A DNA stretch of 64,000 bases from Occultella gossypii (lineage in GTDB: Bacteria > Actinomycetota > Actinomycetes > Actinomycetales > Beutenbergiaceae): the NCBI RefSeq assembly GCF_019947135.1, contig NZ_JAGSHT010000002.1, positions 310,001 through 374,000 on the forward strand. The letters are read 5' to 3'. The translations under genes and the position numbers were made by a program. The notes beneath the pieces were generated by a model. It searched no databases and was not told where the DNA came from. It saw only the letters and a list, made by a program, of their open reading frames with translations. Numbering within the stretch: the stretch's first letter is position 1; every line of letters starts with the position of its first letter. Shown in pieces: positions 34,175-39,696 of this stretch.

Positions 34175-34259
34175 GGGGGGCGCCGACGCGCATTCCGATG
34201 CTGATCCGGGACTGATCGGCACTCCCGCTGCCCGGTCGCCGCGGCCTATGATCGCTGAC

Positions 34260-35162
34260 GTGTCCACCGACGCTGCTGAGGCGGCACCCTCCGATCCACT
34301 GAACGATGCGCTCGACGTCTTCATGGCCGTCCGGCCACGGCTCTTCGGCATCGCCTACCGGATGCTCGGTAGCGCGAGCGAGGCCGAGGACATCGTCCAG
34401 GAGGCCTGGGTGCGCTGGCAGCGCTATGACCGGGACTCGGTGGAGAACCCGGCAGCGTTCCTCGCCACCACGACGACGCGCCTCGCGATCAACTCGGCCA
34501 CCTCGGCCCACGCGCGCCGCGAGTCCTACATCGGACCGTGGCTGCCGGAGCCCGTGGACACCAGCGCGGACCCGGCCCTCGGTGCTGAGAAGGGGGAGGC
34601 ACTGGAGTTCGCGATCCTGATGCTGATGGAGCGCCTGACTCCGATGGAGCGCGCCGCCTACGTGCTCCGGCAGGCGTTCGACTACCCGTACGAGACCATC
34701 GGAGGAATCCTCGAGCAGTCCCAGGCGAACGTCCGCCAACACGTCAGCCGGGCCCGCAAGCATCTCGCCGGCGAGCGGCGCGAGCGGGTCGACGCCGACG
34801 AGCAACGGCGACTCCTGGCGGCGTTCCTCGCCGCTGCACAGGCGGGGGAGATGACCGCGCTGGAGGAACTCTTCGCCGGAGAGGTGGTCAGCACCACCGA
34901 CGGCAACGGCGTGAAGAACGCGGCGCGCAAGCTGGTGGCCGGACGCGAGTGGGTGGCGAAGTTCATCGCCGCGTTCGCGCATCACTTCTGGGTGGACACC
35001 GAGCAGGAGTGGGTCGAGGCCAACGGTGAGCCGGCGATCCTGGTCCGGCGCGACGGTGAGCCGTTGGTGCTCGTGTCGCTGAGCACCGGACCGGACGGCA
35101 TCGAGCAGATCCGCTGGATGATGGCGCCCGCGAAGCTCGAGCGGATCGCCCAGGCAGGCTGA
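34260..35162 (+). CDS. ECF41-group RNA polymerase sigma factor with fused SnoaL-like domain
   Basis: About 300 residues. Region 2 is PRLFGIAYRMLGSASEAEDIVQEAWVRWQ in outline (about 26-54) and region 4 is LTPMERAAYVLRQAFDYPYETIGGILEQSQANVRQHVSRARKHL in outline. Between them is the WLPEPV motif (94-99) that marks ECF41, and after region 4 a SnoaL/NTF2-like domain (about 180-300) contains DGNG (214-217), corresponding to the DGGGK motif through which this group regulates itself. There is no adjacent anti-sigma gene, as expected. The likely start is GTG 34260 with TATGAT seven bases upstream; ATG 34248 is an alternative. ECF41 factors usually control nearby oxidoreductase or epimerase genes. Confidence 0.92.
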   Translation: MSTDAAEAAPSDPLNDALDVFMAVRPRLFGIAYRMLGSASEAEDIVQEAWVRWQRYDRDSVENPAAFLATTTTRLAINSATSAHARRESYIGPWLPEPVDTSADPALGAEKGEALEFAILMLMERLTPMERAAYVLRQAFDYPYETIGGILEQSQANVRQHVSRARKHLAGERRERVDADEQRRLLAAFLAAAQAGEMTALEELFAGEVVSTTDGNGVKNAARKLVAGREWVAKFIAAFAHHFWVDTEQEWVEANGEPAILVRRDGEPLVLVSLSTGPDGIEQIRWMMAPAKLERIAQAG

Positions 35163-35232
35163 ACTCGCTCCACCCACTGCCCGGTCTTCCGCTGCACTGT
35201 GCGCGACGTCACACCGCCGCGCACCTGAAACC

Positions 35233-35259
35233 CGTCACGCCAGGCAACGCTGCCCGGTC
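35233..35259 (+). promoter_or_regulatory. Candidate ECF41 promoter before the NADH dehydrogenase gene
   Basis: CGTCACG (35233-35239) and GGTC (35256-35259) with a 16-base spacer resemble the ECF41 motif TGTCACA-N16-CGTC known from the literature. The same arrangement with identical spacing precedes the SDR gene at 38926. A leader of about 65 bases would precede ATG 35333. Confidence 0.6.
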
Positions 35260-35332
35260 ATAACTAGTGACACCCCGGGAGCGGCGGGCGATCGGCGTCC
35301 ACCGGCGAGGGTGTGGGAGGCGCGAGAGACAG

Positions 35333-36721
35333 ATGCGCAGAATCGTGATCGTCGGCGGCGGATACGCGGGCTTCTACACCGCGTGGACCTTGGAGCGCAC
35401 GCTCCGCCCGGGCGAGGCCGAACTGACCGTGATCGACCCCCGGCCGTACATGACCTACCAACCGTTCCTGCCAGAGGTGGCGGCCGGCTCGATCGAGCCT
35501 CGGCACGCGGTGATCTCCGTCCGCAAGCGACTCCACCGCACGCGGGTGGTGGCCGGCAGCGTGACCCGGGTCGATCACGCGACCAGGACGGTGCAGGTGC
35601 ACCCCGCCGCCGGTCCCGACCTGGAGCTCGGCTACGACGTCATCGCCATCACGGCCGGCGCCGTGACCCGGACGTTCCCGATCCCGGGCCTGGCCGAGCA
35701 CGCCATCGGGCTCAAGCACGTCGAGGAGGCCATCGCCATCCGCGACCGACTGCTCGTCGCGTTCGACCAGGCGTCCGTGCTGCCACCGGGACCGGAACGC
35801 CGCGCCCTGCTCACCGTCGTATTCGTCGGCGCCGGCCTCGCCGGGGTGGAGGGCTTCGGCGAACTGCTCTCCCTGTCGACGGCGTTGCTCGCCGACTATC
35901 CCGAACTCACCGTCGCGGACCTGGACTTCCGCCTCGTCGAGGCGCAGGGCCGGATCCTGCCCGAGTTCACGGCCACGACCGCCGAGAAGGTGGCGCAGAG
36001 CCTGCGCGACCGCGGCGCGACGCTGCACCTGAACGCCCAGCTGACCTCCGCCGTCGACTCCCGTGTGGAACTGTCCGACGGCACGACCTTCGACGCGAAC
36101 CTGATCGTATGGACCGCCGGCAACGGCGCGAACCCGGTCGTCGCGAACCACACCGACCTGCCCGTGGACGCCCGCGGCCGCCTCGTCGTCGGTGCCGATC
36201 TGCGCGTGGCAACGCCGGACGGCCCGGTCCCGGACGCCTGGGCGGCAGGTGACGCCGCGGCCGTGCCGGACCTCGCGGTCGACCGGCCGGACACCTACAC
36301 CGTGCCGAACGCCCAGCACGCGGTCCGGCAGGGCCGGCGCCTCGGCCGCAACATCGCAGCGGTGCTGCGCGGACGAGCCCCCAAGGACTACGAACACCGC
36401 AGCCTCGGCGTGATCGCCACCCTCGGGATCGGGCGCGGGGTGTTCCAGTCCGGGCCGATCACGCTCACCGGATGGCCGGCCTGGCTCATCCACCGCGGCT
36501 ACCACGTGCTCGCCGTGCCCACCTGGCACCGCAAGTTCCAGGTGCTCGCGATCTGGACCAGCGCGCACCTGTTCGGCCGGGACATCGTGTCCCTGCAGTC
36601 CGCCATGGATCCGCGGGCGGCGTTCGTCGGCGCGAGCGGTGGCTCCGGGAAGCGTACGGAGGGCGCCACCGTCGCCAGGATCGACCCGGAGGGCAAACCA
36701 AGGCAAGGAATGGCCGCCTGA
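35333..36721 (+). CDS. ndh: Type II NADH dehydrogenase (NDH-2)
   Basis: A 462-residue membrane-associated flavoprotein. The FAD motif VGGGYAG is at about 7-13, the second nucleotide-binding motif VFVGAGLAGVEGFGEL near 165, and the FAD-contacting WAAGDAAAVPD near 303. NQxxVRQG-like NAQHAVRQGRRLGRNIAAVLRG and a C-terminal amphipathic region ending LFGRDIVSLQ fit actinobacterial Ndh. It passes electrons from NADH to menaquinone without pumping protons. ATG 35333 is chosen over the upstream in-frame ATG 35267 because GGGAGGCGCGAGAGACAG precedes it and 35267 lies directly after the predicted promoter. Likely controlled by the adjacent ECF41 factor. Confidence 0.9.
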   Translation: MRRIVIVGGGYAGFYTAWTLERTLRPGEAELTVIDPRPYMTYQPFLPEVAAGSIEPRHAVISVRKRLHRTRVVAGSVTRVDHATRTVQVHPAAGPDLELGYDVIAITAGAVTRTFPIPGLAEHAIGLKHVEEAIAIRDRLLVAFDQASVLPPGPERRALLTVVFVGAGLAGVEGFGELLSLSTALLADYPELTVADLDFRLVEAQGRILPEFTATTAEKVAQSLRDRGATLHLNAQLTSAVDSRVELSDGTTFDANLIVWTAGNGANPVVANHTDLPVDARGRLVVGADLRVATPDGPVPDAWAAGDAAAVPDLAVDRPDTYTVPNAQHAVRQGRRLGRNIAAVLRGRAPKDYEHRSLGVIATLGIGRGVFQSGPITLTGWPAWLIHRGYHVLAVPTWHRKFQVLAIWTSAHLFGRDIVSLQSAMDPRAAFVGASGGSGKRTEGATVARIDPEGKPRQGMAA

Positions 36722-36731
36722 GACCACCGAG

Positions 36732-36774
36732 GCGAGACTGACGGGACGGACGGATCCATCCCGTCAGTCCTCGC
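36732..36774 (+). terminator. Terminator hairpin after ndh
   Basis: GACTGACGGGA (36736-36746) and TCCCGTCAGTC (36759-36769) form a perfect 11-bp stem with a 12-base loop, extended at the base by four more pairs past a bulged C. It starts 11 bases after the ndh stop and ends 21 bases before the GH3 gene. Confidence 0.75.
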
Positions 36775-36794
36775 TTCGGAAAGGGCCAGCCGCC

Positions 36795-38825
36795 ATGTCA
36801 GCTCCTCATCCCCAGCCCGCCCTCGGTTCTCGGTCGGCCCGGATCCTCGACGTCGACGGCCTCGAGTTCAAGGACTTGAACGGCAACGGCCGCCTCGACC
36901 CGTACGAGGACTGGCGCCTTCCCGTCGCGGACCGGATCGCGGATCTGATCGATCGGATGTCCACCGAGGACAAGGTCGCTCTGATGCTGATCACGTCCCA
37001 CTACATGGGTGCCTCGAGGATCATCGCGGACCCGGAGCAGGGCCTGCTGAACACCCATGAGAAGTGGTCCGACACCAACTTCTGGGCGGCGGAGAGCTCC
37101 TCCACCTACCGCTTCGACCCGCCGGTCCTGGACTATGTGGGCTCGGCCAAGGCGATCACCGAGCTCGGGTTGCGGTACCTGATCATCCGGGACAACCCCA
37201 CCTCCTACGACCTCGCCACCTGGGTGAACGCCCTCCAGGAACTCGCCGAGGGCACACCGCTCGGGATTCCCGTGGTCATGGTCTCCAACCCGCGCAACCA
37301 CGTCTCGGACACCAAGCTGTTCGGGATCGTCGAGGCCAGTGACCAGATGTCGCAGTGGCCCGGGGAGCTGGGCCTGGCGGCCATCGGGGACCCGGACCTC
37401 GTCGAGGAGTTCGGGCGGCTCGCCGGCCGGCAGTGGCGTGCCGCGGGTATCACCAAGGGATACCAGTACATGGCCGACATCGTCACCGAGCCCCGCTGGT
37501 CCCGCGCCAGCGGCACGTTCGGGGAGAACCCGGAGCTGGCCGCGAAGCTGATCGCCGCCGTCACCCGCGGGTTCCAGGGCGCCGGCCTCGGTCCCGACTC
37601 GGTGTCGATGACCACGAAGCACTTCCCGGGCGGTGGCCCTCGCGACAAGGGCCACGACCCGCACTTCGAGCACGGGAGGTTCCAGCCGTACCCGACCGAG
37701 GGCAGTCTGTACCGCTATCACCTGCCGGTGTTCCGGGCCGCCATCGAGGCCGGGACCACGTCGATCATGCCGTACTACGCCAAGACCACGAACGCGATGT
37801 CCGCCCCGCAACTGCACGACGGCCGCTCGTTCGAGGAGGTCGGCTTCGCCTACGACAAGTACCTCATCACCGACGTGCTGCGCGGCGAGCTGGGCTTCAC
37901 CGGGTACGTGAACTCCGACACCGGCATCTCCACGGGCATGCCCTGGGGGGTGGAGTCGCTGAGCCGCCCTGAGCGGTTCGCCAAGGCGATCGACGCGGGC
38001 GTCAACACATTCGCGGGTGACGGGAACCCGCAGCCGCTCCTGGACGCCGTCGCCCAGGGCCTGGTGACCACAGAGCAGCTGGACCACAACGTCGCGTATC
38101 TGCTCGACGAGATGTTCCGCCTCGGCCTGTTCGAGAACCCGTACGTGGACCCGGACGCGGCCCAGGCGATCGCCGAGGACCGGGAGATCCAGGCCCTCGC
38201 GGACTCCGCGCAGCGACGCTCCCTGGTGTTGCTGCGCAACGAGCAGGGCATGCTGCCCCTCACGCCCGACGGCGGCGCACCGGTCCGCCTCTACGTCGAG
38301 GTGTTCACCGGAACCGATCGCGCGGCCGAGCAGTCGCGCATCGCCGCCGAGGTGGCCGCCGCGGTGGGCGACGGCATCGAGGTGGTCGGTTCCCTCGAGG
38401 ACGCCACGCATGCCCTCGCCTGGATCCGACCGGCGATGTCGCTGCTCAGCGACAAGCCGGACACCGAGCTCTCGATCGCGCTGGACGCCGAGACCGGCGT
38501 CGACGCCGACCGGGTTCTCGAGGTCGAGGCGACCGTGCCGACCATCCTGGCCGTCTCCTTCGCCAGCCCGTGGCTGCTCGACACGCTCGCCCCGGGCGCT
38601 GCCGCCGTCGTCGGGACGTTCGGCGTGCTCACCGACGCCCTGACCGACCTGCTCACCGGCGCCGTGACGCCGTCCGGGAGGCTTCCCTACACGATCCCGG
38701 CGAGCCGGGAGAAGGTCCTCGGCAAGGCCTCCGACATCCCCGGGGCGGACGAGCCGAACGGCTACGCCTATGTGGACGGAACCGGCGCGGAGTACGTGTT
38801 CGGATACGGGCGCACGTCCTTCTGA
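36795..38825 (+). CDS. Glycoside hydrolase family 3 (beta-glucosidase-type)
   Basis: A 676-residue GH3 enzyme with N-terminal barrel and alpha/beta sandwich. After a short DLNGNGRLDPYEDW segment come ADRIADLIDRMSTEDKVALML, the TKHFPGGGPRDKGHDPH segment (KHF and family-typical substrate-binding region) and GELGFTGYVNSDTG with the expected nucleophile Asp (normally SDW). The second domain has SLVLLRNEQGMLPL and the C-terminal PSGRLPYTIP. No signal peptide is seen, so it is predicted to be cytoplasmic, hydrolysing imported beta-linked oligosaccharides. ATG 36795 is the first sensible start after the ndh terminator, with AAAGG upstream. Confidence 0.9.
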   Translation: MSAPHPQPALGSRSARILDVDGLEFKDLNGNGRLDPYEDWRLPVADRIADLIDRMSTEDKVALMLITSHYMGASRIIADPEQGLLNTHEKWSDTNFWAAESSSTYRFDPPVLDYVGSAKAITELGLRYLIIRDNPTSYDLATWVNALQELAEGTPLGIPVVMVSNPRNHVSDTKLFGIVEASDQMSQWPGELGLAAIGDPDLVEEFGRLAGRQWRAAGITKGYQYMADIVTEPRWSRASGTFGENPELAAKLIAAVTRGFQGAGLGPDSVSMTTKHFPGGGPRDKGHDPHFEHGRFQPYPTEGSLYRYHLPVFRAAIEAGTTSIMPYYAKTTNAMSAPQLHDGRSFEEVGFAYDKYLITDVLRGELGFTGYVNSDTGISTGMPWGVESLSRPERFAKAIDAGVNTFAGDGNPQPLLDAVAQGLVTTEQLDHNVAYLLDEMFRLGLFENPYVDPDAAQAIAEDREIQALADSAQRRSLVLLRNEQGMLPLTPDGGAPVRLYVEVFTGTDRAAEQSRIAAEVAAAVGDGIEVVGSLEDATHALAWIRPAMSLLSDKPDTELSIALDAETGVDADRVLEVEATVPTILAVSFASPWLLDTLAPGAAAVVGTFGVLTDALTDLLTGAVTPSGRLPYTIPASREKVLGKASDIPGADEPNGYAYVDGTGAEYVFGYGRTSF

Positions 38826-38844
38826 CGGCGAATCGTCCCGGGCT

Positions 38845-38871
38845 GTCACACCGCGGGGCGCCGCTCGGTCC
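38845..38871 (+). promoter_or_regulatory. Candidate ECF41 promoter before the SDR gene
   Basis: TGTCACA (38845-38851) is identical to the reported ECF41 -35 motif. GGTC (38868-38871) follows after exactly 16 bases at the -10 position (reported CGTC). Start of transcription would be near 38878, about 48 bases before ATG 38926. Confidence 0.7.
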
Positions 38872-38925: not shown

Positions 38926-39696
38926 ATGAAGATCGTCGTCATCGGCGGGACCGGACTCATCGGCTCCCAGGTGGTCACGCGCCTCACCGAGCACGGCCAC
39001 GAGGCGGTGCCGGCAGCGCCGAACACGGGCGTCAACAGCATCACCGGCGAAGGCGTCAAGGAGGCCCTGGCGGGTGCGGACGTGGTGGTTGACGTGTCGA
39101 ACTCGCCGTCGTTCGCCGACCAGGACGTGCTCGACTTCTTCACCACCTCGACCAACACCCTCATCGCCGCCGCCAAGGAGGCCGGGGTGGGCCACTACGT
39201 CGCGCTCTCGGTCGTGGGTGCCGACGAGCTGCCGGACAGCGGCTACCTGCGTGCGAAGGTGGCCCAGGAGTCACTCATCGAGAACTCCGGGCTGCCCTAC
39301 TCGATCGTGCGGGCGACCCAGTTCTTCGAGTTCCTCGCGCGGATCACCGATGAGGCGACCGAGGGCAACCAGGTTCACCTGCCGACCGCCTACTTCCAGC
39401 CGATGGCGGCCGCGGACGTCGCCGCAGTCGTGGGCCGGACCGCGGCCGGCGCGCCGCTGAACGGGCGGCACGAGGTCGGTGGCCCGGAGCGGTTCCGGAT
39501 GGCGGACCTGGTCCGCGGCGCCCTGGCCGCGAAGGACGACCCGCGCGAGGTGATCTCGGACCCGGAGGCGCAGTACTTCGGCACCGTGCTCGGCGAGAGC
39601 TCCCTGGCCGCGACCGCCGAGGACGCCGAGATCGCACCTACCCACCTGGCGGACTGGTCCGCGGCCCGAGCATCAGCGGGCGCCACGCCGCGCTGA
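38926..39696 (+). CDS. SDR-family NAD(P)-binding protein (NmrA-like)
   Basis: A 256-residue atypical short-chain dehydrogenase. The nucleotide motif IGGTGLIGS is at 6-14; ALAGADVVVDVSNSPSF, then GVGHYVALSVVGAD and SGYLRAKVAQESLIENSGLPYSIVRATQFFEF in outline follow the usual order of NmrA-like NAD(P)H-binding proteins. These are often redox sensors or quinone/flavin reductases. ATG 38926 with AGGAAGG upstream is preferred over an in-frame ATG 38875 that would lie at the promoter. An ECF41-type promoter and the nearby sigma gene suggest co-regulation with ndh. Confidence 0.9.
   Translation: MKIVVIGGTGLIGSQVVTRLTEHGHEAVPAAPNTGVNSITGEGVKEALAGADVVVDVSNSPSFADQDVLDFFTTSTNTLIAAAKEAGVGHYVALSVVGADELPDSGYLRAKVAQESLIENSGLPYSIVRATQFFEFLARITDEATEGNQVHLPTAYFQPMAAADVAAVVGRTAAGAPLNGRHEVGGPERFRMADLVRGALAAKDDPREVISDPEAQYFGTVLGESSLAATAEDAEIAPTHLADWSAARASAGATPR

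Follow-up and report, generated by a model that had tools for sequence, protein, structure and literature searches.

The 64-kb Occultella window, meaning the whole stretch of DNA analyzed, contains the home locus of a sigma factor of the ECF41 type, which very likely directs promoters of the form TGTCACR-N16-GGTC, placed before ndh and an SDR gene of the locus and before respiratory genes unlinked to it. The locus consists of four genes in the order sigma, ndh, GH3 glycosidase and SDR, all on the + strand. The first-pass annotation wrongly had oxidoreductase and epimerase genes flanking the sigma gene; ndh, GH3 and SDR all lie 3' of it. The following features were distinguished:

34248..35162, + strand: ECF41-type sigma factor gene (304 aa; sigma2, sigma4 and a C-terminal extension of ~120 residues)
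35196..35213, + strand: conserved block ACTGTG-N4-ACGTCACA, 5' of the predicted ndh promoter
35233..35259, + strand: predicted ECF41-type promoter of ndh; -35 CGTCACG (35233-35239), N16, -10 GGTC (35256-35259)
35333..36721, + strand: ndh, type II NADH dehydrogenase family (462 aa; Pyr_redox_2 in Pfam)
36795..38825, + strand: GH3 glycosidase gene (Glyco_hydro_3), between ndh and SDR
38844..38870, + strand: predicted ECF41-type promoter of the SDR gene; -35 TGTCACA (38844-38850), N16, -10 GGTC (38867-38870)
38926..39696, + strand: SDR gene, NmrA-like/NAD(P)H-binding (256 aa; NAD_binding_10, NmrA, Epimerase)

Assignment of the sigma factor to the ECF41 type, already made in the first-pass annotation, is supported by its signature motifs and by the SigJ and SigX4 models. 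The protein contains Sigma70_r2 (residues 25-86) and Sigma70_r4_2 (residues 122-173) Pfam domains, scores just under the curated cut-offs of the TIGR02957 SigX4 model (E 1e-96; 323.1 vs. 323.25 bits) and of the SigJ model (E 7e-79; 265 vs. 271 bits), and matches SigJ of Mycobacterium tuberculosis (PDB 5xe7; E 5e-39), a member of the same group, across sigma2 and sigma4 and into the beginning of the extension. The linker joining these two domains carries YIGPWLPEP, conforming to the ECF41 feature (Y)(V)GPWLPEP, and the DGNG motif is also present. Near the C-terminus, the place of the NPDKL motif, to which contact with the linker is attributed in ECF41 factors, is kept in the genus with two residues changed (APAKL), while close relatives of the protein have SPDKL, NPDKL or NPxKL; this replacement may alter self-inhibition. 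No anti-sigma factor gene was found adjoining the sigma gene, for which GTG 34260 is an alternative possible start.

The ndh product belongs to the NDH-2 family by fold and by sequence relation to proven NDH-2 enzymes (Pyr_redox_2, E 7e-37; top PDB matches are NADH:quinone reductases/NDH-2, E 6e-33 to 1e-27), and its quinone reductase activity is predicted. An N-terminal extension of this protein from GTG 35267, which would be a leaderless start, was considered since the leader is conserved, but the differences in genome G002 fall at amino-acid-changing positions and ATG 35333 was preferred. The Pyr_redox_2 protein encoded by ndh and the NmrA/Epimerase protein encoded by the SDR gene, both downstream of the sigma gene, represent the kinds of partner genomically linked to ECF41 factors. 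The GH3 gene is probably outside the system; in a related locus (L059) it is absent, the SDR gene directly follows ndh, and the site is kept.

Upstream of ndh and of the SDR gene, two promoter-like sites were identified, namely CGTCACGCCAGGCAACGCTGCCCGGTC, 100 bp 5' of the ndh ATG (35333), and TGTCACACCGCGGGGCGCCGCTCGGTC, 82 bp 5' of the SDR ATG (38926). As noted in the first pass, they share an identical 16-bp spacing, and the -35 of the SDR site is the exact TGTCACA of the reported ECF41 motif; the position given for the ndh site also stands, while the SDR site begins at 38844 and not at 38845. They are the only matches to YGTCACR-N16-GGTC on both strands of the window, in which 0.53 sites are expected after dinucleotide shuffling, and the probability of at least one site in the respective intergenic stretch is 0.0008 for ndh and 0.0004 for SDR. 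The -35 and spacer match the published form; the -10 (GGTC) is one letter off the published CGTC and is the usual form within the clade of this sigma factor. The sigma gene itself is without such a site within 210 bp in the genus Occultella. The ndh site is weak in the source genome (CGTCACG, 14 bits). Farther upstream, the ACTGTG and ACGTCAC parts of the block at 35196-35213 are conserved in 4/4 genus members, with diverging flanks, and the block is a possible candidate for an activator or co-activator site. Its letters, ACTGTGcgcgACGTCACA, include a dyad, TGTG-N8-CACA, centered at about -61 from the transcription start predicted at ~35266, which is a CRP-like spacing.

Both sites are conserved at fixed positions, at -100 relative to the ndh start codon and -82 relative to the SDR start codon in 4/4 genus members, where ndh and SDR also adjoin the sigma gene; in the alignment of these genomes the motif columns are retained and much of the upstream and spacer sequence is variable. 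In two other members of the family, an SDR gene with the site comes directly after the sigma gene, which carries one of its own as well. At a further family locus (L063) a related sigma gene precedes an SdhA-like gene and ndh, both of which have a site.

A search with the ndh product brought 80 loci across the phylum Actinomycetota. In a quick tree of 88 NDH-2 sequences, all motif-bearing members fall into one clade of 45 (SH-aLRT 98), 38 of which have the motif upstream, vs. none of the 41 members of a sister clade composed mostly of Microbacteriaceae; with the strict pattern the counts are 29/40 and 0/40 (shuffled expectations 0.075 and 0.045), a comparison that is confounded with taxonomy except in Leifsonia. 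This genus carries ndh of both clades, with the motif only at members of the motif-bearing one, which removes part of the confounding. The motif also precedes the SDR gene in 27/32, the SdhA-like gene in 10/14 and the sigma gene in 12/46 related loci (with overlap between a few of these loci). Since the sites were gathered by pattern, their fixed letters are given by construction; at the first position of the -10, where the pattern allowed C, G or T, 74% of them have G, and the spacer end CTGCCC, unconstrained by the search pattern, recurs. The extended -10 reads CTGCCCGGTC, and in many genera the sites lie at promoter distance with the 16-bp spacing fixed. Among the genomes whose motif-bearing ndh is without a close ECF41 neighbor, 13 of 16 contain a close relative of the sigma factor (E at most 1e-70), vs. 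4 of 15 sister-clade genomes.

To rank sites in whole genomes, a sequence-only model (R1) was trained on 63 sites from other genera and applied as a first-look filter, with 150 candidates scored per genome. The SDR site ranked first in the source genome (22.0 bits) and the ndh site second in the window (14.2 bits), where the next-best match reached 8 bits. Other top matches in the genus precede (i) an HTH/NB-ARC regulator gene, (ii) an SDR gene beside an ECF41 paralog, (iii) a gene for a second QcrB-like cytochrome b, and (iv) an SdhA-like flavoprotein gene. The site of the regulator gene (HTH_31 + NB-ARC; L165 / L262:3940-6258) is present in 4/4 genus genomes, as are, by direct inspection, those of the cytochrome b (with a -10 of CGTC, not GGTC) and SdhA/FrdA-like genes, while the housekeeping QcrB gene, inspected in the genus genomes, has no site. 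The SdhA-like and cytochrome b sites are unlinked to the sigma locus, and both genes are solitary in the source genome, with neither Fe-S nor Rieske/c1 partners, which leaves no evident complete respiratory complex. In 12 distant genomes, ~21 of 30 R1 matches are followed by an ndh, SDR, SdhA-like, cytochrome b or sigma gene; part of these are training sites of the model, and those outside the training set include SDR genes in Actinoplanes, Amycolatopsis and Kribbella and an SdhA-like gene in Kibdelosporangium. The redox regulon including NDH-2 that the first-pass annotation had suggested is supported and is larger than proposed.

The genome-wide motif count that had been put forward as a check came out no higher than chance (28 sites vs. 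~48 expected, the latter being the window shuffle scaled up), which would favor regarding the sites as random hits that a pattern both short and degenerate yields in GC-rich DNA. Because the raw count does not exceed shuffling, it is uninformative, and location and conservation decide. Twenty-two of the 28 sites lie inside probable coding sequence, according to a crude coding score, and the four without coding signal are those of ndh, SDR, the SdhA-like gene and one unassigned; the published consensus with variable spacing, TGTCACA-N15-17-CGTC, occurs only twice in the genome and not in the window, one copy (C15:54395) being located 5' of another SDR gene. The fixed positions in the genus and the motif in 38/45 clade members, against a shuffled expectation of 0.075 of 40, already refute chance, the probability of which we consider negligible. 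An operator bound by a conventional transcription factor recognizing GTCAC half-sites would account for the second conserved GTCAC upstream in the ndh leader, but it is very improbable in view of the fixed spacing, the extended -10 and the promoter-distance position in many genera, and of a -35 identical to the experimentally tested ECF41 -35 (PMC3426412). The same properties, together with lineage-wide conservation and recurrence before other ECF41-linked genes, argue for promoters, as originally supposed.

A weightier alternative accepts the sites as real ECF41 promoters but has some or all of them read by paralogs, the regulon then being shared or belonging to another sigma factor. About seven further ECF41-like sigma genes are encoded in the source genome, and similar sites are found at paralog loci: an SDR gene with CGTCACA-N16-CGTC, a divergent sigma/SDR pair, and an ndh paralog with CATCACA-N16-TGTC; the CGTC of the cytochrome b site points the same way. 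Against this stand the adjacency of ndh and SDR to the window sigma gene throughout the genus, the orthologous sigma genes of family members directly preceding an SDR gene with the site, and the prevalence of GGTC or TGTC at loci with the clade of the window sigma factor, and we judge reading by paralogs to be unlikely. The ndh paralog is of the same clade as the window gene (C25:91100-92440; L066) and is convergent with an ECF41 paralog gene, the two possibly forming a paralogous sigma/promoter pair with a shifted -35.

Direction of the promoters by the window sigma factor itself, which we prefer, would operate as follows. The C-terminal extension would restrain the factor until a small-molecule signal arrives; once active, it would direct RNA polymerase to TGTCACR-N16-GGTC promoters, here before ndh and SDR, and to the unlinked sites of the SdhA/FrdA-like flavoprotein, the second QcrB-like cytochrome b and the HTH/NB-ARC regulator. 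The outcome would be changed electron entry into the quinone pool via the non-proton-pumping NDH-2 and partner redox enzymes. Self-inhibition followed by transcription of the target set upon a signal is probable by analogy with described ECF41 factors, which are kept inactive by their C-terminal domain until a conformational change is triggered by a signal (PMC3426412; PMC8999054). From the targets, namely NDH-2, the SdhA/FrdA-like flavoprotein, cytochrome b and the NAD(P)-binding SDR, which touch the quinone pool, we infer a respiratory or quinone stress response; sigma dependence and the transcription starts are likewise predictions.

The ECF41 group, its -35 and its link to oxidoreductases and epimerases are already known. 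For the factors of Bacillus licheniformis and Rhodobacter sphaeroides, the promoter TGTCACA-N16-CGTC and the neighbor-gene targets have been established experimentally (Wecke et al., 2012; PMC3426412). The Occultella system resembles them in domain composition (sigma2-sigma4 plus C-terminal extension), the WLPEP linker motif, the absence of a noticed adjoining anti-sigma gene, the promoter form TGTCACA-N16-xGTC, and a target gene adjoining the sigma gene. It differs in the -10, which is CGTC or TGTT in those bacteria and mostly GGTC in the Occultella sigma clade, and in its targets: theirs is one gene or operon, for carboxymuconolactone decarboxylase, whereas the Occultella locus comprises at least two transcription units, with unlinked respiratory genes in addition. 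As far as the literature searched shows, with partial coverage, the novelty of the predicted regulon lies in its extension over several loci, its respiratory character, its occurrence in many families and its GGTC -10. The first-pass claim that ndh is an undescribed target holds insofar as no paper naming both NADH dehydrogenase and ECF41 was found in that partly covered literature; Pyr_redox/Pyr_redox_2 proteins were already counted among ECF41-linked oxidoreductases, as was NmrA among epimerases (Wecke et al., 2012; PMC3426412). Actinobacterial genes of aerobic metabolism are also under redox control in the Rex regulon of Streptomyces (PMC5355995), but Rex is a repressor that responds to NADH and has an operator of its own, whereas control in Occultella would be positive and exerted by an alternative sigma factor.

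A multi-locus regulon would contradict the published view that ECF41 factors in general serve a single gene or operon. For the ECF41 group, whose sigma factors are very common among actinobacteria, the recurring quinone-linked target set turns the search for a signal and a purpose into a concrete hypothesis, i.e., the quinone pool or respiratory stress, and the promoter form is testable in cultivable Streptomyces or Cellulomonas. A broader proposal, quite conceivable if somewhat short of probable, is that an ECF41 clade of Actinomycetota governs a dispersed alternative respiratory module composed of NDH-2, an SdhA/FrdA-like protein, a second QcrB-like cytochrome b and an NmrA-type SDR (plus WhiB in some Streptomyces), switched on when the C-terminal domain of the sigma factor binds a small molecule, which may be quinone-like.

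Several further occurrences of the motif were recorded. The TGTCACA-N16-GGTC site at C25:128000 (L172; also L167, L170 and L171), found in 4/4 genus members, precedes ~150 conserved bases with no clear ORF, for which an Rfam search gave no match of its own, only tRNAs nearby; this region is a possible small RNA candidate, with covariation support nearly absent (one compensatory pair). Divergent alpha/beta hydrolase genes are located at L262:2005-3728, and their relatives elsewhere bear the motif. In two Streptomyces loci (L072:10887 and L079:7851), TGTCACA-N16-GGTC is present upstream of a WhiB-family gene.
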